Shown in pieces: positions 659 through 29,300 of a stretch of 64,000 nt of DNA. Within the stretch, counting starts at the first letter, position 1; the number at the start of each line of letters is the position of its first letter. A model generated the notes under the pieces. The model saw only the letters and a program-made list of their open reading frames with translations. It ran no database searches and had not been told where the DNA came from. This stretch comes from Tubiluchus corallicola (taxonomy: Eukaryota; Priapulida; Priapulimorpha; Priapulimorphida; Tubiluchidae). The stretch spans positions 322,636-386,635 of the forward strand of contig JAQGDQ010000098.1 in the NCBI GenBank assembly GCA_030141605.1. Direction: 5' to 3'. A program made the translations under genes and the position numbers.

Positions 659-3600
659 TTATTTTTGTTCATATTTATTTACTAATTCTCCAAGCATATC
701 CATAGCACTTTTCAGTTCTGATACAGACATTATTTGTGTACCACACTTAGCACCACACCTTCCGTCGCACATCTGTAGGTGAATGTGTTCTGCGTTATTA
801 AAATCTAGAGCAGACTTGACGTTCCTAGCTGCACAAGACTTTGCTGTAAGTGGTGGCGTTGAACAGCTTTTATATCTTCTAATAGGCAAGCATGACCGCC
901 AACCAGTCTTCTGCTCTACAGAAATGGTTGAAACTGAAGCATCAGAACTTTCATCACTAATGTCAGGAAGACATAAAGCTGCATCTGAATCCATTTTATC
1001 TTCAGAGTGATCAGCAGTATAAGTTTGATTTATAAAAGGTACATCTGCCACACTTCCATGGAGTCTAATATTGTGCATTTTGTTTTTTGAAATGTGAGGG
1101 AAACATAGAGCTGTGTCTGAATCCATTTTATCTGCTGAGCAGCCTATAACATTTGCTGTATTTACAAGAGTTATATCTTCTGCACTTCCATAGAGTATAA
1201 TATTCTGATTGTCGCTTTTTGAAATGTCAGGGAGACCCAGAACTTCGTCTGAATCCATTTTGTCTACTGGTGACATTGAAAAACTTTTACGACTTCTAAT
1301 AGGCAAGCATGACCTCCACACACTCCTTTGGTTTTTGGAAGCATCTGTTACCGAAACGTCAGAACTTTCTTTACTAATGTAAGGAAGACACAGAGCTGCA
1401 TCTGAATCCATTTTACCTGCTGAGTAACCGCCATCATCAGCTATTTGTACAAAAGGGGTATCTACTACACTTCCATGAAACCTAATGTTCTGTATTTTGT
1501 TTTTTGAAATGCTAGGGAGACATAGAGTTGTATCTGAATCCATTGTATCTGCTGAGTACCTTCCAACGTCTGCTGTTTTTACGAGGGTTACATCATCTAC
1601 ACTTCCATAGACTATGACATTCTGATTGTTGCTTTCTGAAATGTCAGGGAGACCCAGAACTTCGTCTGAATCCATTTTGTCTACTGGTGACATTGAAAAA
1701 CTTTTACGACTTCTAATAGGCAAGCATGACCTCCACACACTCCTTTGGTTTTTGGAAGCATCTGTTACCGAAACGTCAGAACTTTCTTTACTAATGTAAG
1801 GAAGACACAGAGCTGCATCTGAATCCATTTTACCTGCTGAGTAACCGCCATCATCAGCTATTTGTACAAAAGGGGTATCTACTACACTTCCATGAAACCT
1901 AATGTTCTGTATTTTGTTTTTTGAAATGCTAGGGAGACATAGAGTTGTATCTGAATCCATTGTATCTGCTGAGTACCTTCCAACGTCTGCTGTTTTTACG
2001 AGGGTTACATCATCTACACTTCCATAGACTATGACATTCTGATTGTTGCTTTCTGAAACGGCAGGAAGACATAGCGCTGCGTCTTGTCTAGTTTTGTCTA
2101 CTTCCTCTTCTGTTGATGGCACTAAACAACTTTTAGGTCTTTTCATAGGCAGGCATGACCTCCACACACTCCTTTGCTTTTCAGAAGGATCTAATACCGA
2201 CGTGTCAGAACTTTTGTCACTAATTTCAGGAAAACATGCAACCATTGTGTCTGTAGAGTAACTGCCAACATCTGCTACTTTTACAGGTGGTGCGTCTACT
2301 ATACTTCCGTGAAGTATAATGTTCGACGTTTTACTTTTTGACGTATCGTACATCATTGTTTTACAAGTTTGCCCTTGAATGCTCGTGTTTGGAAAACAAA
2401 GTGTAAGATCCGTATCTACTTGATCATATTGTGAATATCCTCTTTTTCTGTGCTGAGCTGGCATATCTTCGTTACTTTCATGAAACATAATGCTCGGAAC
2501 TTGCTTTTCATTGCTCCTACTCAGAAAACACAGTGCCACATCTCTATCTATTTGATCAGCTGAATATTGTGAATTTGCCCTACTTCTTTGTGGAATTGGC
2601 ATCTCTGGTATGCTTTCATAAACCATGATGTTTGAAACTTCTTTTTCTGGAGTACTTTCTATCACTGTTTCACTGGTTTGCCTTGTTGTGCTCTCTTTCA
2701 GACAACAAGGTGCAAGGTCTGCATCTATTTGATCAGCTGAATATTGTGAATACCTTTTTTCTCGGTGCTGAGCTGGCAGATCTTCTGTACTTTCATGAAA
2801 CATAATGCTCGGAACTTCTTCAAAAACTTGCTTTTCATTGCTCCTACTCAGAAAGCACAGTGCCACATCTCTATCTATTTGATCAGCTGAATATTGTGAA
2901 TTTGCCCTACTTCTTTGTGGAATTGGCATCTCTGGTATGCTTTCATAAACCATGATGTTTGAAACTTCTTTTTCTGGAGTGCTGTCTATCACTGCTTCAC
3001 TGGTTTGCCTTGTTGTGCTCTCTTTCAGACAACAAGGTGCAAGGTCTGCATCTATTTGATCAGCTGAATATTGTGAATACCTTTTTTCTCTGTGCTGAGC
3101 TGGCAGATCTTCTGTACTTTCATGAAACATAATGCTCAGATGTTCTTCAAAAACTTGCTTTTCATTGCTCCTACTCAGAAAGCACAGTGCCACATCTCTA
3201 TCTATTTGATCAGCTGAATATTGTGAATTTGCTCTACTTCTTTGTGGAATTGGCATCTCTGGTATGCTTTCATAAACCATGATGTTTGAAACTTCTTTTT
3301 CTGGAGTGCTGTCTATCAATGCTTCACTGGTTTGCCTTGGTGTGCTCTCTTTCAGACAACAAGGTGCAAGGTCTGCATCTATTTGATCAGCTAAATATTG
3401 TGAATACCTTTTTTCTCTGTGCTGAGCTGGCGGTTCTTCTGTACTTTCATAAAGCATAATATTTGGGACTTCACTTTTTGGAATTTCGTCTATTATCTTT
3501 ACACCTAAAATTTCATCATAAACTTTTTCGTTTTCTTCCCTAACTTTATGTTCATTGCTGTTACTTTTTGAAATTTTAGCATCAGTTATTACATCTACTT

Positions 3601-5201
3601 CATACTTCAGCACTAATTTTTGAAGGGCATCCTTTGCACTTTTTAAACCTGATAAAGACATTATTGGTATGTCATAATCTGATGTACAATTTCCATCATG
3701 ACAACTCAAGAGATGAATGTGGCCAGAATTACTCAAACCAGGATAAATCTTAATATTTCTAATTGGATGTGTCATCTCCAGTTTCGACTGTGAGTCTTTG
3801 GCATCAATAATTTTACCTGATTTTGTCTCAACTACTATGCATTCCATTTTTGAATCGTTTTTAAAGTCTTTATTAGGTAATCGTGCACACAGAAGAAAAC
3901 CAGACCTGTCTGCATCACCATCACAAAGACAAAGAGATACGTCCAACTCCATTGTGTCGGCCGTGAAATTTTCCATAGGCTTTTTAAGTTGTATGTCCTC
4001 TCTACTTTCATAAAATTTATTTTTTGCAGCATTTTTTGAAAACAGCTGTCCCTTACTTGGACTAGCTGAATCAGACATCGTGAGCATTGATTCTTTAAAA
4101 TCAGAAGATGCAGGTGAACTCAAGTCTTCTTTGCTAGCATGAGTAATTGGGAAAACTCGAAGGACATCTTCCATAACTGGTCCTTTGGTACATTTGGGCG
4201 AGTGCATTGCATTTACAACTTCATCAAATATTACTTCATTGGGCTCTTTGCAGGCTCTCATGCTTTCAGTCTCACTGTAACTGCCATCATTAATCACGGC
4301 TATCTTGTCATTACTGTCTGATAATGGTACATCATCTTCTTTATTAGTAGAAATTATAAACGTTCCAGTAGATATCGTTGCTTTACCTTTCACAGCTTGG
4401 CTATTCAGGTCATCTCCTAATGCAGCAGGTTTAGTTGCAAGATCATCAGCTGGTGTAGCTGACGTATGCGTTATGATATGGTCTTTACTGCCTCTTTGCA
4501 GTTCCGATTGTCTTGGAATAGACGGACTTTCAAAAATAACTTTTATCTTCTGACTTCTGTTGTCATCAGGCCAATTACATGCGCACTGTTCTGTGTTTTG
4601 ACATTGACATTCATCATCTTGTGTGTCTTTCCTTCTAATTGTTGCACTTTCCCTTCTTTCTGCAAATATTATTCCAAATGTTACCTTTACACTAACAGTA
4701 TTTTCAAGTTTTTTAAAACTTTATGTAAACCATATTTTGCACTAACCTGCAATATCATATGCAGTGCATCAAAATCTGCTCTGGAAATATAATCCGTGCC
4801 GTACAGTTTAATACAATGTTGATAACTTATTATAGAGTTGAGCATAACTTTTTAAAATCACAACATGTTATAACTTTTATGAAATACCAGTAATGTCTAA
4901 TGCTTACTCTCTTTCTCAGTCACTAAAGTCTTTTCTTCTGTGCCACGTTTTAGTTCATTAGATGCAATTTCAGGAACTGTCTGATCCAATGTGTCCACTG
5001 AAACATACACAGCATTTAGTCAATTGCATTCTAAAGGCGCATGAACAACACTTGTTAGAACTAATGTAACTTAAAAGAAATATTTATTAAGTTTCTGTTA
5101 CCATTGGTAGGGTCAGCCAGCACTTTAAAGGTTTCCGTTTTGAATCTTACATTAAATGCATACGCTATACATCCCTTGGAGGGTAATTTAGTTTTGTACA
5201 T
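659..5201 (-). CDS. Unrecognised repeat-rich protein, three exons, about 1,396 residues
   Basis: I do not recognise this family. The proposed exons are 5102-5201, 4908-4997 and 659-4659. They join in phase 1 with GT/AG borders (donors GTAACA and GTAAGC; acceptors TTTCAG and TTTGCAG), giving 1,396 codons plus stop. The start is the ATG at 5199-5201, preceded by an in-frame TGA. The large last exon is open past 4393 up to its acceptor, so a start inside it is not needed. The N-terminal 150 residues are charged, with a Cys cluster (ECQCQNTEQCAC). The rest is built from degenerate units of about 50 residues with the core YSADxMDSDxxLCLPxIS, in higher-order tandem blocks of 109 and 139 residues. 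A second motif, HIHL-x2-C-x-DG-x-C followed by IMSxSxLKSA and LVxKYE, occurs once in the middle and once at the extreme C-terminus. No signal peptide or membrane segment is seen. Function unknown; probably intracellular and largely disordered. Confidence 0.75.
1231..2064 (-). repeat. Two near-identical 417-bp tandem units inside the repeat-protein gene
   Basis: 1231-1647 and 1648-2064 match base for base except at the end of the unit (AATGTCAG against AACGGCAG). The unit is 139 codons and keeps frame, and carries two YSADxMDSD cores and a WRSCLPIRSRKSF block. A more diverged unit follows from about 2065. Such identity suggests recent duplication, gene conversion or an assembly artefact. Confidence 0.9.
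2440..3440 (-). repeat. About three 327-bp tandem units inside the repeat-protein gene
   Basis: The anchor GACAACAAGG recurs at 2701, 3028 and 3355, a spacing of 327 bp or 109 codons. Each unit encodes an AQHREKRYSQYSADQIDADL half and a PQRSRANSQYSADQIDRD half. Copies differ by scattered substitutions and a short indel, so this array is older than the 417-bp one. Confidence 0.85.
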
Positions 5202-5563
5202 TTGTCAAATACGTGGCGACTTTTCGAGAAAAAATTCGACGCTGCAAAAACTGTGCTTTGCTATTACGTGTGCGTGTTTGGGCAACTTCTGGCATTCTCT
5301 GGCTGATCTATAGATAACTGAGATCAATCAATAGGCTTGCTACTTTTCTTAAAACAGACCAAAACCGTCGTTCCAAAATGTTTCACATTTGTCCGAGCTT
5401 CAGCCTATTGCACGTACATTTATGTACTACCAATCGTCTTCGAGGCACATTCTCAGAATCATAACTAGTTAAAAGTTTGAAAAACAGACAATAGCTCTAC
5501 CTTATTTCAACAGAGATAGAGGAACACAAAACCATCAGTAATTCGCTTTGCCCCATCACATTA
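5202..5563. other. Short spacer between two minus-strand genes
   Basis: This is the gap between the doublecortin gene's stop and the repeat-protein gene's ATG. No AATAAA is seen on the minus strand here, although AATAAG occurs near 5502. A good 3' splice acceptor (GTTTTTGCAG on the minus strand, AG at 5242-5243) lies 40 bases upstream of the ATG. It could end a 5' UTR intron or accept a trans-spliced leader. Confidence 0.4.
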
Positions 5564-6685
5564 TTAGATGTAATATTCACCTTGGTGACTTCGCATGAGA
5601 AAGACTCCTCTGTTTTTTGCTTCTTCTTCGGTCTCGTCTGGATATAGCTGATCACTTAAAAGGTCTGCTACTACGTCTTCGGGAGGGGATGAATGGATTT
5701 CGCCTAGGTTTCTTTGGCCTTCGCTAATGCCCGAGTCTTTTGCCATAGCTTCTGAAGTTGCTCGATATCCAAGGAAATCGACCATAGTAGCTGAGGTGTC
5801 ATTAACTTCATTGGCACGTGAGACATTTGGACGGCGTTTCGCTTTGAATCTGTCAATTTCAGTTCTGCCATAATAGGGTTCTGCGTGCACTTGGCGTTTT
5901 TTGGAATACACGTTTGTATCTGGTTGCAACTTGCGTTGTTGTCGGCTTCCTTTAGCAGCGTTAAGTAATCGACGCTTAACTTTTTCTGATAAGCCTTTAT
6001 AAGCGACAAGCTTGAAGAATTCCAGGCCAGCGGCTACATAAGATTCTCCAGATACAATCTCTTGAACATCACGTATTCTCTTACCAGTTTCCATGTGATA
6101 TAATCTCCTAACTGCTCCACTATTTAGAGTTAATTTTCTCGTAATTTGCTGAAGAACATAAGGCAAATTTCTCATATCACTTTCTAGCATGACCATCTTT
6201 ATAGGGTCAAACGCCTCGTCCCCGTTTTTGTACACTTTTATGAATACAGGTATTTTGTTAAATACATTAGACCATCGAGCAGGAACCAGGCTGCCACGTG
6301 GACTGTGGACAACTGGCTGAACAAATTCAAATCGATTCTTCCTTGGCCGTTCAGCAGCTTTCCTGTATTCCTCAATTCGATCGTAACTCAATTGTTTAAA
6401 AGGTTCTCGGCCTCCTGCTACGTACTCCTTGCCAGACCGAATATCTTCCCACTTTCGTAAGCTTCTGCCTGACTTTGGGCTATATACGTTTCTCACTGCT
6501 CCAAAAACTGGCCGCAATTTCTGGGTAACTTCCTCCAGAAAGGCATCAAACGTGCGAATGTATCGATGATTAAGAATAAATCTCTTCCCCTCGTGAAATC
6601 TGTCGCCGTTTATATATATTTTAACAGCTCTGACATCATCAGGCTTGTAGTTCATGGCCTCTTGATAGACTAGCCAAAGCTTCAT
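5564..6685 (-). CDS. Double doublecortin-domain protein (DCDC2-like)
   Basis: This is an intronless frame of 373 residues. Doublecortin domain 1 spans about residues 20-105 (VKIYINGDR start, SGKEYVAGGREPFK end). Domain 2 spans about 147-232 (VFIKVYKNGDE start, SGESYVAAGLEFFK end). Two N-terminal domains followed by a polar tail is the DCDC2 arrangement, and such domains bind microtubules or tubulin. In vertebrates DCDC2 acts on ciliary axonemes and neuronal migration. The tail of about 140 residues is basic, then acidic, and ends in GEYYI. The first ATG (6683-6685) has a poor Kozak context; the ATG at codon 11 (GAGGCCATGA on the minus strand) is better placed. Vertebrate DCDC2 genes have many introns, so an intronless copy suggests retroposition or intron loss. 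The frame is intact and both domains look conserved, so it is probably functional. Confidence 0.88.
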   Translation of the reverse strand: MKLWLVYQEAMNYKPDDVRAVKIYINGDRFHEGKRFILNHRYIRTFDAFLEEVTQKLRPVFGAVRNVYSPKSGRSLRKWEDIRSGKEYVAGGREPFKQLSYDRIEEYRKAAERPRKNRFEFVQPVVHSPRGSLVPARWSNVFNKIPVFIKVYKNGDEAFDPIKMVMLESDMRNLPYVLQQITRKLTLNSGAVRRLYHMETGKRIRDVQEIVSGESYVAAGLEFFKLVAYKGLSEKVKRRLLNAAKGSRQQRKLQPDTNVYSKKRQVHAEPYYGRTEIDRFKAKRRPNVSRANEVNDTSATMVDFLGYRATSEAMAKDSGISEGQRNLGEIHSSPPEDVVADLLSDQLYPDETEEEAKNRGVFLMRSHQGEYYI

Positions 6686-9600
6686 TCAGCTTAGCATGCT
6701 GGTAAGACGGATATTTATTCTTTTCCCACCAATTCACGCTGTGGATTAACCACAACATGCTTGACTTTGTTGGCACCCTCAGTCAGCCAAAAAACCATAA
6801 TGTTGCCTGAGAAACGGATTTTGTAGCTAGTAACTATCACTACCTTGACATGACGTCACGAAGACACGAATTTTAAAGCAGGGGCGTTTATATTCAAATA
6901 GCAATCACGATTGTGAGCAACACATATTTTCCCCTATTGAAATTCTTAGGAAAAAATGTTAATTCAAAAGCATTGTATGGAGAAATAAATTATTGTCTGC
7001 ATAAATTCGTCATTTGCTTTAAAATTTCGTTTAAAAGCATTCGGTTCAACACTCTATTAACACGTTTCATTTGTTGTTAAAGGAAGACGGGATTTTTCAT
7101 ATATTGCTCCATTTTCAAGTCCGATAAAAAGTATACATTTTATACATTTTAACACAATTAATACTGGAAACGCGTTTTTGATAATTAAATAATAGATTGA
7201 AACTTAATTAACAGCAGGCGAGCCCAACTATTGATGACATCACAAACTAACAGCATTTTCAACAGCAAAAATATTCCACGAGCGTGTTGCACGTGCTCCC
7301 AAACTGTAAGATCTTCTGTGTGTTGCACTAAGACTAGGCAAGTTTTAAGATAAAAATTCAATTTTAAATTTACCACTGTGCTCACACATCTGTACTGAGA
7401 GGTACAGCACCTGTTTTTTGTGCAATGCGTTTCCGAAATGCAATCCGAAATTCCGTTAGTGCCCGTCTAACTAACGAATGGCGAAGTGCATGTAACAGCG
7501 AAGAACAAGGGGCGCGAAAGCGAAATTTTAATGTGTGTTAATAATTTTTTCACCTAAGTCATTTTTGAAAAAATAGTGTGTTTCCTTTCAAAATTTTAGC
7601 CTAAATAGATTGCTTTGACCTACAAAATAGATTGGGTCCGGTTTTGCTTTAAGTTGTAGCATGATGATCTAGCTGGGATTAATAAAAATATAGCTGGTTG
7701 TTTCTTGGCACAGGTCATTGACAGGTGTCCATCTATTTGTGTTATTTTCCTGGCATATGTCTGCTAGGGTTGCACAGACTACATTTTCTGAAACTGTTTA
7801 CAGTTTTCACAAATCTGTGTGTTGCTACCATTTGCATTTTATTGCGTTCGTCTGCCTGCCAGATTTGCCTAGATGACCATGACGTCACGAGTAAACTGGC
7901 TTCACTCCCTCGCACAGGCCGCTGAAAGATGATTTCAATATTCTTCAAAGGCATTTCACCATCGCAATTGCAAGTGAGTCAGTGTGGGAGATCAGTAGAA
8001 TTAGACCTACTTCCACTTTCATGATTCTAAGAAACAATAATTGGTGAGTGTCTTTTGGTAATTCATTTTCCTTCCACGGTACCTGGGTTTTACGAATTTA
8101 AATTTTTTCAAAGAATGGTTTATCTGTGATTGGCAGCTAATCAAGTAGTTTCCCTAACTAATTCTTTAACCAACCTGAAAAAACAAAATAACGAATGAAG
8201 ACAGACGTATGTTCTGCCTTGTCAGCCACACCTTTTCCTGTATTGTAGGCAAGTTAAGTTGTCAATTAAGTAGACCACAAAAAATAACGCCTTTACTTAA
8301 TGAAAAAATAAAGAGGCAGTATTGGATACTTCATTTTCCGAAAAGTTCTAAAACTGTAAGCGCTCTGTTCAATAACTGCCCTTGTGATGCAACTGTTACA
8401 GGTTGTTACAGTAATAATGATATTTACCACATCCAGGGTCTTTTGGGCTCGCTGTTCTCATTAGGATACGCTTCAATAATGATAATGCGCACAGGTGTGG
8501 TTGTAGGTACGAGAAGCATTTATTGCTTGCGCTTGTCGCACTGAAAACCTTCTGTTCGTGTCACATAGCCCATTCAGCGTCGCTAATGAGCAAACAGTCT
8601 ACCGTCTTATATAGTCACAATGCAGATTGAATGCTGCATTTCCAGAGGTGTGCTCTTACTTTCAACAAAGTAACTGCAAGGAAATAAATTAATGCAATGT
8701 TACCGGGAAATTTGACGGCCTATAATAGATCTAATTAGCACAGCTTTGTAATGCGTGTCACAACTGTGTGATGCGAAGAAAGCGTTCAAGTACTACGTGC
8801 AACATTTTACTGTATGTAACAATCACTACAAGTACAATTACACGCCTGAAAATAGTGACACTACCGCTGCAGCTACAATTGCTGCATGAAAGTAGTGCGC
8901 TGCAACGACTTCTGACTCTAAGCATCGGTATGTACACTCTGCAAAATGTAGATAGCGCGTTAAAAGAACTAAGTGGTTAAGAGCTTAGATAATTAAATTG
9001 CTAAGTGGCAGCTAACAGAAACCCAAATACATGCACAAATTGCACCAAATTGTATCAAGGCTCCAGCAGTTCATTTGTGATTATAAACCAGACACTTGTT
9101 CGTCATTCACAAATAAACATAATAGTAAATTATTCATTACGATATTGTTTAATAAGACACTTACTATTTTATGTCATGCTATAATCTGCTGTTCAAACTT
9201 CAAACATGTTTATTTGCTTTAAAAAATAATAATTTTTTAAGCTGTTGTCAGGCAGCAACAATTGTTCACTTTTGGGTGGAATACATTTTCCAAGAAAGTC
9301 TTGTTTCCCTGTGCCCGAGATTCAACTATAAATGCACAACTTGCTAATCTTGTGGAAGTCTGCAGCTGCTATGCCCTCAAGAATTAAATGTAGCCGTTAT
9401 AGCGCTACTTTAAAAAGTGAAATTACAATTTACCGCTACTCATTTTAAAACTAGTGGCAGTACTCCAGCGCTACAGTAGTGACGCCACTACCCACATTGG
9501 CAATCACTAATTACTATAATATATCGAAAACATCTCAAATATTTTTTCGGAATTTTATTCATGTTTTAAAAAATGTTGAAGCATTCCCGAACTACGTATA

Positions 9601-19560: not shown

Positions 19561-20277
19561 GTACTTGGAAAAATATCTTCTTAATAGTGAAAAGCAGTTC
19601 CTCTTAAATTCTGTTTTTTTAAATAATTACTACACAACACGAAATTCATGAATATTGTCACTTATTTTATTTTGTTTTGGTAATTTGTAGAATATTCCAA
19701 AGGATCTCATATCATTGCTTAAGATATACTTAGTGCTTTTTTCTGTCACCATATAAACTATAATATTGTTAGATCAAACATTCGTTTATCAACTAAACTG
19801 CAAATATAAATAAAATTATGAGTTAATTACCTCAGTTTTTGCTTAGAAACTACTAATTTGGGAAATCAAGCTGGTTAAATTAATTTATTGTCTGTTCCAC
19901 ATTTCTCACTAGTGCCGCCTGTGATCATATAATTTTAACATATTAAAAGGATGGCTGACTTGATGACCTTTTGATCGGCTCGCTATCCTCTCTCCTTTGC
20001 ACTTATTACTAGCAATTAGGGTTTATTTACCTGTATACTATTCATCTATTGCTCCCTTATAGACTGGAAGTGGTTACTGTACATTTGTAAATTGGAGAAA
20101 AAAATAAATTTCAATTCAATGTGTGAATAAAATCAAAACGAGGCGTAGCTGCTAAAGAAAATTCTTTAACTTGACTGCGATTGTTTACAAACATAAAGTT
20201 TGGTCAGTTTGCTGTATAGTTGATCTCTTCATTTGGTGGAAAGTTTAAATTGAATAGTCGCTAAAAAATTCAAAATT
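19561..20277. other. Upstream region of TBC1D31
   Basis: No gene is seen. Near 20095-20125 an AAATAAATTTCAATTCAAT run looks like a retroelement tail. The TBC1D31 promoter should lie in the last few hundred bases, but I see no clear core promoter motif. Confidence 0.3.
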
Positions 20278-22545
20278 ATGCAAAGAGATCAACTAGATTT
20301 AGGATGCAAAAAGACTTTTGGGAGTCTGTGGATCCGCAAACCTGTGCCAAACAATGAAGGAGTTATACTGAAAATAACTCATTCGGTACCAGGAAGTCAC
20401 CCGCTGGACGGTAGAAACGTGCGATTTTTGCAGTTCGCGTTCGACTTTAGTGGCACCAAACTTCTTAGTGCAGATCAACACGGAAATATTACTATTTTGG
20501 ATTTTGATAAAAATAGATTTAAACATGTCTGTCGTCTTACTGTTACTTGTACAGCTCTCAGTTTCGCAAATTCTCCTGTTACGCGCCTCGTAACAATCTG
20601 TGTAGGAACTTCTGACTGTACGTTTCGAATTTACCGTGCAAGCAAAGGTGAACAAAGTGCGTGCCTTAAAGGTCATGCAACAGCCATCTGCAGCATTTCT
20701 TCTCACTCAAGTCGAGAGTTTGTAGTCACAACGTCTTGTGACACTGGTATAATATGGAACATTGAAACATATAGCAAACTAAGAAAACTCACTCTAAAGC
20801 AAGAACTTGATATATTAAAAATTTCTTTCTTGCCTGAAAGCAATACCATACTTACCTGTTTTAAAGAGGGTTCCATATTCGGCTGTAGTTTTAATGAAAC
20901 CAACGTGCAGTTTAAATTTCAACTTCCACAACCGCCATGCAATGCGCGGTCATATACATGTGTCGCTTTGTCACCAGATGGCAAAAACGTTGCTGCTAGT
21001 GCTCGCAGATCATGTGTGCATGTTTGGGACTTGGAGAGCAATTTATTTAAATATCACTTAGAACTTCCAAAAGGTGCAGCAACCTGCAAACACATGCAGC
21101 TGTTTGTTGCACCTACTAGTCATGCAGGACCTAAGGAAGAACTTGTGTTATCTGTAGTCGGTGCTGATGGTGTACTTTTAATTCTTGATATGAACAATAA
21201 CATGGTGCATAGCACAAAACAAGTTGACTTGAGACTTTGTCAGTTTGTGATGAATTTTAAGCAAATTTATGCTGCCTCCTTGCTGACTGATGGCACCCTA
21301 CAAATTTATGATGTGGCTAGTTTATTCACAAGACTTGGCATGAAAGCTGTTGCCAAAGAGTTGAACTCAGAAACTCCTGCTATGCAGTCCTTAGCTGGAA
21401 ATGTATTGCAGGGAAAAATTTCAAAGCAGATCAAGAAGGAACAACCTATTAGACAGACCGTAGTTGAAAAAGCATCAGGAGAACCACACCATGTAGATCA
21501 AAACCTGAAAAGCCATGTGCCTGATGTAGTAACCCATTTTGATAGAGAACGACTGAACAGAATCTTGAAAAGCTGTGGAGAATATCCTGAGAAATACAGG
21601 CTTCTTATTTGGAGAATACTTCTTCAGCTGCCAGAAAATGTTGAGAATTATAAATTTCTTGTTGGCAAAGGTGTCCACCCGGCTTTCAGTAATCTTCAAA
21701 CTAAGTACCCTTTCAAGAGCGGTCAGCTGCTACAAATCATGCAGAAGATGTTATCTGCACTTGCTCATTGGGCACCAACTACACTTTCTGAAGATGGTTA
21801 TCTGCCACTGTTTGTGTTTCCCTTTGTTAAGCTTTTCCGCCATAATCATTTTGTGTGCTTTGAAGTACTTATGTCATTGGTGAACAATTGGTGTAAACAC
21901 TGGTTTGAGTTTTATCCTGCACCTCCCCTTAATGTCCTTTCCATCATTGAAAACATGTTGGCTAGAGAAGACAAAAAGTTGCTTCTGCATTTTATACACT
22001 GTGGTTTTACAACTCAGGCATATGCTTGGCCAGTACTGCAGACAGCATTGTCAGAAATCTTGAGTAAAAAAGACTGGTTGATTGTATGGGATCATTTGTT
22101 GAGCAACCATCCAGCTTTTCTTGCTGCAGTCACGGTATCACTACTTACTGCTTGTAAGAACTCACTGATTAAAATTGTTATCTTGGATGACCTGCGTTTT
22201 TTCTTGCATCATCGGCAAACTTTTGATATCCGTGCTGTTATTCGTGATGCTTATAGAATATATGATACCACTATTACTAGCTTAAATATTGGTGATTTTA
22301 TTGAAGAATATCAACCTCTTCCTATCTGTGGAGTTTATCCGGAGTTTAAACATCATTCACGCTATGTTGAAGATTTTCATATTCAAGAACGAGAACGACT
22401 TCGACAGGAAGAGCTTGAGTATCTCAAAAAAAGAAAGGAAGAAATAGCTGCCCAAAATAGCCTATTAATGTCTGAAAACCTAAACAGGGAATTGAGATCT
22501 CGTCGTGCCAAAAATCGCGTCAAAAGTCCTAATTTAAAATTGTGA
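20278..22545 (+). CDS. TBC1D31: TBC1D31 (WDR67), intronless and C-terminally short
   Basis: This is a single open frame of 755 residues. An N-terminal WD40 propeller covers about residues 30-360 (FDFSGTKLLSADQHGNITIL, VALSPDGKNVAASARRSCVH). A TBC-type domain covers about 425-640, opening with EKYRLLIWRILLQLPEN and including HWFEFYPAPPLNVLSIIENM. A short coiled-coil start (ERERLRQEELEYLKKRKEE) lies at about 702-720. In vertebrates TBC1D31 sits at centriolar satellites and supports centrosome and cilium function. The IxxDxxR and YxQ catalytic motifs of active Rab GAPs are not visible here (KYPFKS and DGYLPLF stand in their places), as in vertebrate orthologs, so GAP activity is unlikely. The vertebrate protein is about 1,066 residues; here nearly all of the 300-residue C-terminal coiled coil is missing. 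Vertebrate genes have many introns and this one has none. Retrocopy or lineage-specific intron loss are both possible. Confidence 0.93.
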   Translation: MQRDQLDLGCKKTFGSLWIRKPVPNNEGVILKITHSVPGSHPLDGRNVRFLQFAFDFSGTKLLSADQHGNITILDFDKNRFKHVCRLTVTCTALSFANSPVTRLVTICVGTSDCTFRIYRASKGEQSACLKGHATAICSISSHSSREFVVTTSCDTGIIWNIETYSKLRKLTLKQELDILKISFLPESNTILTCFKEGSIFGCSFNETNVQFKFQLPQPPCNARSYTCVALSPDGKNVAASARRSCVHVWDLESNLFKYHLELPKGAATCKHMQLFVAPTSHAGPKEELVLSVVGADGVLLILDMNNNMVHSTKQVDLRLCQFVMNFKQIYAASLLTDGTLQIYDVASLFTRLGMKAVAKELNSETPAMQSLAGNVLQGKISKQIKKEQPIRQTVVEKASGEPHHVDQNLKSHVPDVVTHFDRERLNRILKSCGEYPEKYRLLIWRILLQLPENVENYKFLVGKGVHPAFSNLQTKYPFKSGQLLQIMQKMLSALAHWAPTTLSEDGYLPLFVFPFVKLFRHNHFVCFEVLMSLVNNWCKHWFEFYPAPPLNVLSIIENMLAREDKKLLLHFIHCGFTTQAYAWPVLQTALSEILSKKDWLIVWDHLLSNHPAFLAAVTVSLLTACKNSLIKIVILDDLRFFLHHRQTFDIRAVIRDAYRIYDTTITSLNIGDFIEEYQPLPICGVYPEFKHHSRYVEDFHIQERERLRQEELEYLKKRKEEIAAQNSLLMSENLNRELRSRRAKNRVKSPNLKL

Positions 22546-22683: not shown

Positions 22684-23372
22684 TAATCCTACTTTTACTT
22701 TAAAAGTAATTTCACTTTCACTTTAAAAAATATTTATGGAGTTTTCCTGCATTGTTTATTCTGTTTCATGTCAAAACTAAAATACATGGCTTTAATAAAA
22801 AATGTTCGTTACATTAGCCTAAGTGTTTATTATGTGTTATTTTAAACCATTTTATTTTTCTATTTTTAATTAAACCTTTCTATATTATAAAGTTGATGAG
22901 CAATATGATTTGCAGGTATTGACAACTCATACTTGCTTTTTCCGGATAAAGAGATGATCTACTATGAATGTTCCATATTTATCTAACTAAATTAATCAAA
23001 GTCATTAATAACACAAAGTGGCAGTACCCAGTGTTTAGTTACAATGTGGCTTTTATTACATAACGGTGCTGGCAATTACCAGGTGTGTTATAAGTGTTGT
23101 GTAACCTGGCTTCATTTTGCTGTTACCAGCAGTAGCTTATGTAATATTGATCCTGGCAAAACTTGCTGCTGTCAGCTTGCAAACAAATGAGATTCTATTG
23201 CGGTGAAGAAAAGCATCTAGATGTAAGTTGCATAATTAGTGAGTTATATATTTGCATGTTTTATTTGTGTACTATTTATGAATTTATTGCATTATCTGTG
23301 TGTCTGTAGTGATGTGTTTTGCTTGTGTTACATTTAGACGCAGTGAAAAAATTCTTTTTGTATTTTTTTCAG
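22684..23372. other. Gap between TBC1D31 and the first visible junctophilin exon
   Basis: No MORN-encoding sequence is found here. The right end is the polypyrimidine tract and AG acceptor (TTTTTTTCAG, 23363-23372) of the junctophilin exon. A short ATG frame ends at a GTAAGT-like donor at 23221, but its phase does not fit that exon. Confidence 0.4.
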
Positions 23373-26300
23373 GTACATACCAGGGTCAGTGGTTGCGTGG
23401 CATGCGACATGGATATGGAGTTCGTAAGAGCGTGCCATATGGCTTGGCTTCCCGGAACCAAAAAGTGACACTCCGAGATTCTCTGACCTCTTTACGCAGT
23501 GAGGGAAGTGACACTATTGCAGAGAGGGACAAAAAATTAGACGAAAGTAGAGGAGGTTTCGTACTGAAAGCCAGAAGTGATGAACTTATTGATGTTCCTC
23601 GTCGAATGTCTGTCTTTCAAGACAAGAAGACCGTTCTAAAAGAAAGAATTATGGCAGGCTTTAGGATTAAACGACAAAGGAGTGCAGGTGATCTATATAA
23701 GCGCACTTCTCGCGAAACAGGGTCGATTAGAAGTACTCATAGTGTGAGAAGTGTAGACTCACTGGATTCAACACAATCTGGTTTGACAAGTGCTTCGTTG
23801 GGAAGTGTGGAAAGTGCACATAGTTTTGTAGCTCAGGATGACATTAACGATCCCAGTGTGACAGAAACTTATGCCGGAGAATTTAAAAACGATAAGCGGT
23901 CTGGTTTTGGTGTTTGTGAAAGGTCAGATGGACTTAAATACGAGGGTGAATGGTATGGCGATAAAAAATATGGTTATGGTATAACAACTTTTAAGGATGG
24001 TACCAAAGAGGCTGGAAAATACAAAAATAATGTCATGATAACAAATATGAGTGTTTCGAATAACAAAGCGAAAATATTTCTAATCAGGCAGTCAAAATTG
24101 AGGGAGCGCCTCGAGGCTGCTGTTAGCACAGCCATTAGGACATCACAGATTGCGATACAAAAAGCTGAAATAGCTGTGTCAAGGTAATGTTTCCCTTAGT
24201 TACCGTGCTTCACAAGATTTTGAGATTGAAGCAATAATCACATGTATTTTTATAGTTTGTGTGCGTTGTTGCTTCTATCATTGTTGGGCACCCAGGGAAG
24301 CATGGTCAGTGCTTGTAGCCCTTGTGTGGCAACCTTATACTAGACACACATGGCAGAAAAATCTGTCTGTAGAAAACTGTCTGGCGCAAACCAGCTTGCA
24401 CAATATTTGGCCGCACACAGTATCTGTTGTTGAAGCAACACCCCGTGTCATGGATAATCAGTGTAAACATTTTCTAGATCATGTGTGATTACGATATTGC
24501 TCTCTGTTTGGTCTGACCTGATTTTGTTTGATTCTTATTTTTCATCTTTAAGTTGCACAAGTGTTTTCCATTTTGTGATTATAAATCTATACAACTTTAT
24601 TGTATATTGAACAACGTAACTCGGTAAAACAAAATTAGTATGATAAGAAACGATGGCTGTTGATCTACATGTTTTTCTGTGTATGTGGTGTTTTTTCATT
24701 GCAAATTTTATTTTGCCTGCTCAAGGTGTACAACAGCTAAACAGAAGGCAGATGATTCTGAAGTAACAGCTAAACAAGCAAGAGAAGACTCGGATCGAGC
24801 TAGGATCACAGCGAAGCAATTTGCACCTGATTTTCATCAGCCAGGTATTTTATGCAACAAGTAGTACTAATCTTTGTGTTCTGCATGTGATATTAAAGTC
24901 ACTTTATAAAATAAATAAAATTTACCTTGAAGTTTAATTCCATGAAATAAAGAAAGATATAAGTAAAGTATATATGCTAATGACATACGTGTGATTAGTT
25001 ATACATTGTTTTCGTTGTCTGTTGTAGTTATAAGGATCGTATTGTTCGTCTTTTCTCTGTCTCGGGAGATGTGAGCTAATTACTACTTGCTCGCCTGGCT
25101 GCATCCTGTTGGGATGTAGGACAGCAGATGGATTATTGAATTTCTCCCTGATAACTCCCATTTATATGTCGTTTTTACTGGCTATATTATTTTATGTTGG
25201 TTAAATGCATTTGTTTTTATGCAAATTTCAATTTATGTATGACTCATTTGCACAGTGCCCTGAAAGCAAAATTAATTCCAACAAAGATGAAAACTGAAAC
25301 ATTATGTATTTTATCTAGTGTTATAATTGTGTGTCATGACTTTTGCGTGGCATTTGTGTGTGACCTTTGGTTGACTTGTAGGTATATTTAAGATTTATCA
25401 GCAACTCGCAAGGTTGTTTGATGTCTCCTAGTTTCACATAACACAACTTATATGCAGGGCCGGATTATCCTATAGGCTAGTATAGGCTGCAGCCTAGGGC
25501 CCCTCAAGGTTGGGGGCTTTCAGGCTTTGGAAAAGTTTGGTAAAACATTTGTTTTTTACACTACGGTTGTGTTAAAATATGTGCTAACTTGATACTCAAT
25601 AAATTGTAAAATAATGGTATTTCTTAAAGAATATTTTTACTGACAAACAAAAGATAACTATTCTAGTTATTTAAAGAATTTGTAATAAGTTTACTTCAAG
25701 TTATAAAAATGTCGCTGAAACATATATCGCGAGTAAAAAATATTCAAGATGAGGCAGGCGATTCGAAGGTGGTTCCATCTGAGAGGGCCCCATAATTTTA
25801 TTAGCCTAGGGGCCCCAAAGGGTTAATTATATATAAGGAAGCAGTTCTCATCCTATTTGCCTTGGCGGCTTGGCCCACTTTAATTTTTCAAAAAAACTGT
25901 GCTACTTCACCAGTTATGTATTTAGGACCTGGTTTATTTGAATCATGCACTGTGTAAGTGTATATCAGTGGTGTAGGAATGCATTGAAACACATTCTGTA
26001 TTTTTCAAATCAACTTTTTAGTTATTTTCTAAAATATTTCTTTATCCCAGTAAAATAATCTTAAAACTTGAGAATCGGTGATGTAGATGTACGTAGCATA
26101 AATAAGCATTAAGCTTAATTAACTAGTACATTTCATCGCAGTTTGTCTTCGAATGCTTTTTGGAAAATTCTTTCATTTAACCATGTGTATTAAATAGTAA
26201 TATAAATCCAATGCGTATTGTTTCTAGGTTTTTTGATGTCGACTTTTCTTAAGGATTTAGCAACTTAATAAATAATTTACAGTAATTAGTATTTTGCATC

Positions 26301-29300
26301 ACCCCCTGTTAAATTTCTCATCAATTTTTTTGTGAATTTGAACTGGCCTGCTAGTAAGTATAGCCATATGCAGCCATGGTTGTATTTCTTGCACAAATTC
26401 GAAACACTCTTATTAGGTGGGAGTTGAAATTTATAAGAAGTAATGACAACAATCAATTTTATGGCTGTGTTTTGTTGATATTATCATTATTTATTAATAA
26501 TGAAATGTTTGTTTAATGTGCAAATTATATCTTTACTAAACTACATTTCAATTTTAAATCTATTTAAAGTAGGTCATCATAGTGAATCACTAAGGTGCTT
26601 ACAAACTAAACCAGATTGCTAATTTGTAGGCGTCTTGATTTTTAGGATGTGAACTAATGAAGAAAAAGTTAGCCGAACAAGGTGGAAATACAGATACGAG
26701 TAAACTTCAACCAGTAGAACCCGATCAGTCTCACATTAAAAGAACCGTGTCATTGTTTACACGCAAGAAATCAACGGCATCCATATCACAAGATCCTACC
26801 GGTTCCAGCCCAGGCCGAGGTAAAATGTCTATCAGTCGAGCCATAGAGATTGATGAACTTAACAAACCTGGACAACAGGAGGACATGCAGTATGGGAGTT
26901 CAGAGCAAAGAGATGCCAGTCTTCTCTTAAAAGTACCCAATTCTGCTGCTATGCCTCCAGTTGTCAATACTCCATCATTAAAGCCTAGAAGCCGACTGAG
27001 TTTTGCTGATGAGCAAAGTTCTGACAGAGACAGATCTCATAGGTATGATCCAGAAGGTGCTCCCCACTTTCGAGGAACTGACGAGCGACCTCATTTTCAG
27101 TTAGGGCAAGAGTCAAATAGTCCATCATTGGCAGGTGATATTTATGAAGAAAGAGGACCATATAGACGTAGTGAAAGAGAACAAGACTACAGTAGGCCAT
27201 ATGTACAGTATCGTCATCCTCGTCATCCAACACCACCTGGTGAACCACAGTATATGAACAGGAAAGAACGGAAATACAATCCAGAGAAATATGATGACTT
27301 TTATCCTCAAGAGCATGCAAGCAATTCCTATAATGATCCCAGGTATGAAAAGTATGACCAGCATAGAAGCGAATGGTCACAAGCTGAGTATGACAGTATA
27401 CGTAGGTATGGAAAACCTGACCGTCATGGAAACCAATGGCCAAGAGTAGATGATGCTGACAGAGGACAACATAACCCATATGGTAATCGTTATGATCATA
27501 GAGGTGGTTATCGACTTCATGCTAATCCAAATGAACCTTCTTTAATGTCAAAAAATCTTCATCATTTGGCACATAATCCAAATTATAATTCTGATAGTAG
27601 CTCTCCCCGGTCAAATAATCCACGCAATTTGCCCATAGGTCTATCAGGTTATAATCGTAATTTGACTGAGTCTCCATCTGTTATCGATTATGATAAGCCA
27701 GAGGATTTGTACTTTCTGGAGAAACTCAAAGCGAAACAAGAATCTCGACGCATGACGATGCCATCTATAATGAATGCTGACAAGTTTCCTGCACTCCGAA
27801 GCCCTCCCAGGTCACCTCCACGAAGCCGTCCACTTTTTTTCAGCTCAAAGAAATCAAATCCGACAATACCACACATGCCAGAAGCATACGTTGTTGAAGA
27901 AGGTGTTCGCAAACGCATCAAAGCCGAGAAAGTAACACAAAATCACGTTGGTAAGTTGCATAACTTCGATCAGGAAAATGAATCTGATATGTTTTTTTAC
28001 TGCATAATAGCAAATTTGTCATGGAAAGTGCCAATATTTAGTAATGATTTACTCTTGATAATATTGCAATTCACAAAAAATTTTGGAATGATTGTAATGT
28101 GCAAATTGAATGGAAAATACTGTTGAATTAGTACTGTAACAGTCTGTGGCACTTGAAATTTCAGTAGATAAGCTCTTCTGCACAAATGTAATCATTTTTG
28201 AAAGAATTTTGAAGTTGGCAGTCCGTATATTTGTTGATTACATATATTCAAGTGTGGTGTACACTATACAACTTTCAGAATTTGATATTCTTTAATTTTA
28301 TCTTTATTGTCTTAATTTTCTTAGACTTTTGAAAAACTCTTTTACGCCCAAAGTGGCTAAAATATGCGTATATTGCTTTAAAAATAATTTATTGATGGTG
28401 TAACATCTAGGTTTGAAACAGACAGTTTTACAACTGATATATGTTCTCCCCTAGTGGGATGTGTATATTGCTTCCACTTTTTGCTGTGATTCTCTAAATT
28501 AATTTTAGAACTATCGGCATAGAATATCCGTTTCTCTTAGTTTCATTCTTTACTTCACTGGCTCTCTGTATTTTCAAATTAGTGCCCATTAACATAGAGA
28601 TAGATGGTAATGTAGAGATCAAACTGCTTATTAATGAGTTATCCTTTAGGATAGTTCTTGTTGATGCAGGTCATCCAATTTTTAGTACGAATTTTCTAGA
28701 ACTCCATCCTCTCAGTTCATTTTTTCTAGTTTGCTGTCTGCATCTTTATTTCATCATTTCATAATTCTACATTCTCTTTCTTTCCTCACCTTATTTCTCT
28801 TTAGACAAAAAATCGACTGAAGATGATTCTTTACCTGCAGTGTCATCAAATCCAGCAGTCAACCCTTCAGCAAACAACCCGTCACTACCGTCCAAGTATA
28901 CGCTATTGCCAGCTCTGTCTGATGGTAGGCGCAACTCGCTGCCTGATGCACATGAACTTGCCGTGGAGCAAAGAGCAAAGACTCCAATGTCTCGCGAAGA
29001 GATATCTGTACTCAGTGCACTAAGGAGAGAAGAAGTGCGAAATATCAGGTCATTCATGGAAAAAGAGGCACAGACGTTCTTTCTCTTTCGTTCCAGTGTC
29101 AGGGTGAGACACTTTTTATTATTTGATAACAAGTAGACGTTTGACTACCTGATATTAGAAATAAAAATTGTTATGAGAACGCTGTGCAGTTTTTAGACGT
29201 GTGCGAGTTTAATATTTACCGAATTCAACAATGCTAAAAGTAATTGATGCCTGTCTCAAGTTTCTTGCAAGTCTTCAAATTTCCATTCGAATGCAACTCT

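Follow-up and report, generated by a model that had tools for sequence, protein, structure and literature searches.

RP1 and RP1L1 are proteins of the photoreceptor axoneme. RP1L1 contains two DCX domains together with 28 repeats of 16 residues, the repeats being lacking in mouse, and its tandem-repeat region varies between species (PMC12206149); RP1 is encoded by 4 exons and contains 2,156 residues (PMC8197273). Human DCDC2 possesses a functional X-box and its protein is found at the cilium (PMC4519111), X-boxes being the binding sites of RFX factors (PMC5838959). A literature search on DCX family expansion gave nothing relevant.

The window analysed here is a stretch of 64,000 nucleotides of Tubiluchus corallicola. 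It was found to contain a 4-kb repeat frame, which is predicted, with a probability of about 0.88, to be the terminal exon of a gene of the doublecortin superfamily, spliced from 6655-5581, 4997-4908 and 4659-659 on the minus strand. The nearest architectural precedent is RP1L1, as RP1 and RP1L1 likewise carry two N-terminal DCX domains and a very long C-terminal part; however, the unit of ~44 residues is, by inspection, unrelated to the 16-residue Glu-rich repeats of RP1L1. DCDC2 shares the tandem DCX pair and the X-box promoter (PMC4519111), and DCX domain 2 of the window lies nearest to that of DCDC2 (2dnf) among solved single domains, but the window gene has a giant tail of repeats, encoded by a last exon of its own, and its DCX pair occupies one exon where vertebrate DCDC2A uses 4-5 (PMC1550402). 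The DCX/DCLK proteins also contain tandem DCX domains (doublecortin structures in the PDB match the window pair at E=3.5e-20), whereas the window gene is without a kinase domain and a separate DCX-kinase gene of 715 aa was found at C59.

Gene structure and family placement

The minus-strand frame 659-4720 was found to be uninterrupted over 1,353 codons, and the adjacent 5′ frame on the same strand (5564-6685) was found to encode two DCX domains. The features of the predicted gene are as follows.

5581..6655 (-): exon 1 (coding), containing the ATG (MNYKPDD...), DCX domain 1, DCX domain 2 and an acidic linker, followed by the phase-1 donor CACCAAG/GTGAAT
6398..6577 (-): DCX domain 1, PF03607, E=1e-14 in the whole-genome search
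6014..6178 (-): DCX domain 2, with human DCDC2 (2dnf) as top single-domain match in solved structures
4998..5580 (-): proposed intron 1, GTGAAT...TTTCAG, donor kept in three paralogues, acceptor phase fitting
5102..5201 (-): exon 1 of the preliminary description, rejected and probably intronic (inside proposed intron 1), donor ATGGTAACA
4908..4997 (-): exon 2, (V)DTLDQTVPEIASNELKR..., phase 1 at either end
659..4659 (-): exon 3, giant last exon of 4,001 bp with the repeat tail, phase-1 acceptor CAG/AA, stop 659-661, AATAAA 658-663

The translation of the joined model contained 1,721 residues with one stop, which was terminal, and the product would carry two DCX domains and a linker, then 15 units of ~44 residues with three partial units, and a duplicated C-terminal module. 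The start codon at 6655-6653 was found at the position of the ATG of three paralogues. The donor of the DCX exon (AAG/GTGAAT, last exon base 5581) is located five codons ahead of the stop of its frame, and a splice at this place leaves the single codon base that exon 2 requires. The junction of exon 2 with exon 3 is supported by splice sites and phase, its donor AGAGTAAGC being moderate. With a generic matrix, the donor at 5581 scored 3.68 bits, and those of the paralogues C1776 and C1694a scored -0.1 and -0.8, respectively.

The preliminary description had placed the repeat frame in a gene of its own with no family link. The frame itself, open throughout, was confirmed. Searches of Pfam and the PDB gave no family for the repeat frame (sub-threshold chance matches being all that it yielded), whereas the upstream exon, omitted from that model, matched Pfam DCX with E=3.2e-32 (frame 5564-6685). 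A profile match to a known family was what the preliminary description had named as its refutation, and the absence of a family link no longer holds. The 5′ junction that it gave as 5102 to 4997 should read 5581 to 4997, as indicated by donor phase and paralogue conservation.

Both DCX stretches exceeded the Pfam cut-off, and one or two such domains place a protein in the DCX superfamily, to which the predicted joined gene belongs. Domain 2 gave 44.3 bits with 2dnf, and in the same listing of solved single DCX domains the top doublecortin domain reached 31.2 bits, a comparison that covers domain 2 alone since domain 1 is without a solved DCDC2 counterpart. The Pfam scan of the DCX frame and the repeat frame gave zero matches to RP1. 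In having a DCX pair and then a long tail within a very large terminal exon, the gene corresponds to the RP1/RP1L1-type layout, a likeness of architecture that is no proof of membership. Judged from sequence, the protein most likely resembles DCDC2 and RP1L1 in binding axonemal microtubules and carries a disordered, multivalent tail, with DCDC2 and RP1/RP1L1 as candidate subfamilies.

The remainder of the window was found to contain a single-exon frame of 763 residues at 20254-22545 (+) that combines WD40 repeats with a Rab-GAP TBC domain and which we take to be TBC1D31/WDR67-like; in vertebrates, TBC1D31/WDR67 contains many exons and a single exon is unusual. It is followed by a MORN-repeat frame at 23282-24187 (+), junctophilin-like by inspection, and by a low-complexity charged frame at 26639-28126 with no Pfam family match.

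Paralogous genes in the same genome

The whole-genome search gave 45 DCX domain matches, and the three closest relatives of the window gene were C1776, C1694a and C1694b, whose DCX exons were 47-51% identical to it. The alignments of C1776 and C1694a to the window DCX exon ended at the donor codon, and AAG/GT was found at the same place in all four genes, followed by unrelated residues in each of them except for a short donor-like GEY common to the window and C1694b. An exon-2 counterpart was found in C1694a between the DCX exon and the tail (EGTLDQAIPEDVVDDLKDISKEG vs VDTLDQTVPEIASNELKR in the window), its acceptor and donor both being in phase 1 and the donor, AAG/GTGAGT, perfect. The exon 2 of C1776 was not cleanly delimited, as DILDQIVPKYS runs into a stop and the donor is ambiguous. 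In C1776 and C1694a, as in the window, the tail exon opens in phase 1 with the acceptor CAG/AA.

The same repeat tail was found 3′ of the DCX exon in C1776, the two tails matching in blastp with 105 bits (E=5e-27), where none of 100 shuffles exceeded 32 bits. A unit HMM built from the window alone found 7 units in C1776 (sequence E=7e-51) and 0 in shuffles. The C1776 tail was first recognised when the DNA beyond the 3′ ends of the paralogous DCX exons was read, and the reverse search then confirmed it: used as a query against the genome (343 Mb), it matched itself and the window tail only. The whole repeat exon as genome query had matched itself only and missed the C1776 tail. The DCX exon and the repeat are assigned to one gene mainly because two loci show these independent parts arranged alike. 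Genome-internal comparison supports the joined gene, its paralogues and the conserved promoter elements.

The unit HMM found zero units in C1694a, C1694b, C918 and C1759. The tail of C1694a was found to contain about 11 copies of a 36-residue unit in a separate exon, and that of C1694b about nine linker-derived copies of ~65 residues each. By their sequences, the paralogous DCX genes have expanded different tail repeats. At C1694:19000-33500, a tandem DCX gene pair, 63% identical, was observed with wholly different repeat expansions (linker copies vs 36-residue units). The DCX genes of the genome were mostly found in single very long exons (C59, C1759, C918, C147, C2196/C2262/C2263). DCX frames of 1,321 and 1,736 aa contained several DCX domains each, and the 1,736-aa frame gave identical scores in three contigs (C2196/C2262/C2263), perhaps uncollapsed haplotypes.

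Repeat tail

The tail contained, in order, a Cys-rich head, a degenerate unit, a first module copy, array A, array B and a second module copy.

4571..4618 (-): Cys-rich stretch DDECQCQNTEQCACNW at the head of the tail
3905..4015 (-): isolated degenerate unit FYESREDIQLKKPMENFTADTMELDVSLCL, 41-47 bits with the unit HMM
3599..3763 (-): module copy 1 (HIHLLSCHDGNC...LKSAKDALQKLVLKYE), ahead of the array, 50% identical to copy 2, E=5e-14
2381..3466 (-): array A, with 7 units, most of them in pairs that form blocks of 109 residues (327 bp), DNA 95-98% identical
944..2326 (-): array B, 7 units and 3 partial units in 139-residue (417-bp) blocks, two blocks with 99.5% identical DNA
662..868 (-): copy 2 of the module at the C-terminus, with ...MSVSELKSAMDMLGELVNKYEQK as its last residues, predicted beta-beta-beta-alpha with moderate confidence

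The Cys-rich charged head, the degenerate units and the tandem blocks of the preliminary description were all recovered, the blocks recurring in the DNA every 327 and 417 bp and the units being found by the HMM as 15 strong and 3 weak partial copies, with zero in shuffled controls. The unit comprised ~44 residues with the consensus xNIxxHGSxxDxPx...YSADKMDSDxxLC, and the core YSADxxDxDxxLC was found to be kept between the window and C1776. The repeat unit is new by the Pfam and PDB searches, and the gene family itself is known. The earlier view of a fast-evolving repeat protein, probably a scaffold, stands in that the repeat is real and new to Pfam and PDB, and falls in that the gene is most probably not free-standing; its proposal that the repeated cores could serve as short binding motifs is sound as a possibility.

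The repeat blocks are recent, as judged by DNA identities of 95-99.5%. The pN/pS between repeat copies was 0.25-0.9 on small counts, indicating weak constraint, and a pair of units modelled with AlphaFold2 showed no fold (pLDDT 39, from a shallow alignment of 9 rows, window only). Because of the weak constraint on the copies and the lack of a predicted fold, part of the tail may be just loosely functional. The C-terminal module gave a tentative beta-beta-beta-alpha fold (pLDDT 62), and the model found no match in the PDB. Only two copies of this type of module were found genome-wide, with none in C1776. The module was also considered as a degenerate half DCX domain from its strand-strand-helix order, and this was rejected at 0.4% probability in a profile comparison.

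Proposed promoter elements

The region 5′ of the DCX exon, the proposed promoter, was found to contain three conserved blocks.

6850..6859 (-): CRE-like element GTGACGTCAT, with TGACGTCAT at the matching place in C1776, C1694a and C1694b
6802..6815 (-): X-box-like RFX site GTTTCTCAGGCAAC, which begins 160 bp upstream of the ATG
6734..6750 (-): third promoter block GTTAATCCACAGCGTGA (GTTTAACCATARSGTGA in the paralogues), from the promoter alignment

All three were kept 5′ of the ATG in four of four genes, most of the surrounding sequence having diverged, and the X-box (GTYTCTNRGGYAAC) occurred at about the same distance in each of these paralogous genes, the window included. The X-box was the sole match within the 64 kb (0.01 expected), and the CRE gave 2 matches in the window vs 0.04 expected; the second 10-base copy was observed at 7879-7888 (-), about 1 kb further upstream. 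Since an X-box and a CRE would control the expression, ciliated cells or sperm are likely its site.

Alternative readings of the locus

That the repeat belongs to a three-exon gene of its own, with its start at 5201 and unrelated to the adjoining DCX exon, as the preliminary description had it, is very improbable, even though the join that it proposed was reproduced (1,396 residues, stop-free, phases in agreement, with an ATG at 5201). In the paralogue loci examined, nothing matched its exon 1 (5102-5201), whereas a match to exon 2 lies there with a DCX exon on one side and a tail on the other; the donor of this exon 1, at 0.29 bits, is weaker than that at 5581; the same repeat follows the DCX exon in C1776; and the conserved promoter elements lie 5′ of the DCX exon, with no X-box nearer to 5201. 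The making of two products is less likely than not; in this reading, read-through to the stop at 5564-5566 would give a DCX protein of ~362 residues beside the spliced tailed form, and 5102-5201 could add a tail-only isoform. The stop five codons past the donor in the window, the stops within a few codons past it in C1694a and C1694b, and an AATAAA within intron 1 at about 5090 are consistent with such a product, but the read-through residues vary among the paralogues and resemble intron.

The joined gene might also carry a tail that is mostly unconstrained filler, growing and shrinking by unequal crossing-over, with the DCX part alone functional. The recent near-identical blocks, pN/pS values reaching 0.9, the completely different tails of C1694a and C1694b and the human RP1L1 repeats, which are polymorphic and missing in mouse (PMC12206149), point in this direction; however, the core YSADxxDxD..LC has survived in two paralogues that share just 51% identity in their DCX exons, and the frame has stayed open across 4 kb. 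We regard a tail of mostly filler as unlikely.

Proposed mechanism and significance

For the joined doublecortin-type gene, the most likely working mode, by analogy, is that of RP1L1 or DCDC2, with the DCX pair on the microtubule and a tail of repeated binding sites. A ciliary mechanism of this kind is somewhat favoured. The two DCX domains would bind the microtubule wall, as the DCX fold suggests, followed by the linker and a tail of ~1,300 residues, probably mostly disordered, whose 15 motif copies would present a row of partner-binding sites and which would terminate in a small folded module. The partners would be docked along the ciliary or flagellar axoneme, a location suggested by the X-box and by the DCDC2/RP1 relatives, and the expression would be driven by RFX through the X-box and by a CREB/CREM-type factor.

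It may further be speculated, with the odds against it, that the paralogous ciliary or sperm doublecortins of this animal diversify by independently amplifying different tail motifs, with selection acting on the length or valency of the tail and the DCX heads thereby acquiring exchangeable multivalent spacers. The differing repeat expansions of the sister DCX genes are parallel to the fast-evolving repeats of RP1L1 and offer a natural comparison for the role of the tail on axonemal microtubules. A missed splice junction can yield a false orphan, the family-naming domain having been located here one exon upstream, and what appeared to be an orphan repeat protein becomes a testable cytoskeletal protein.
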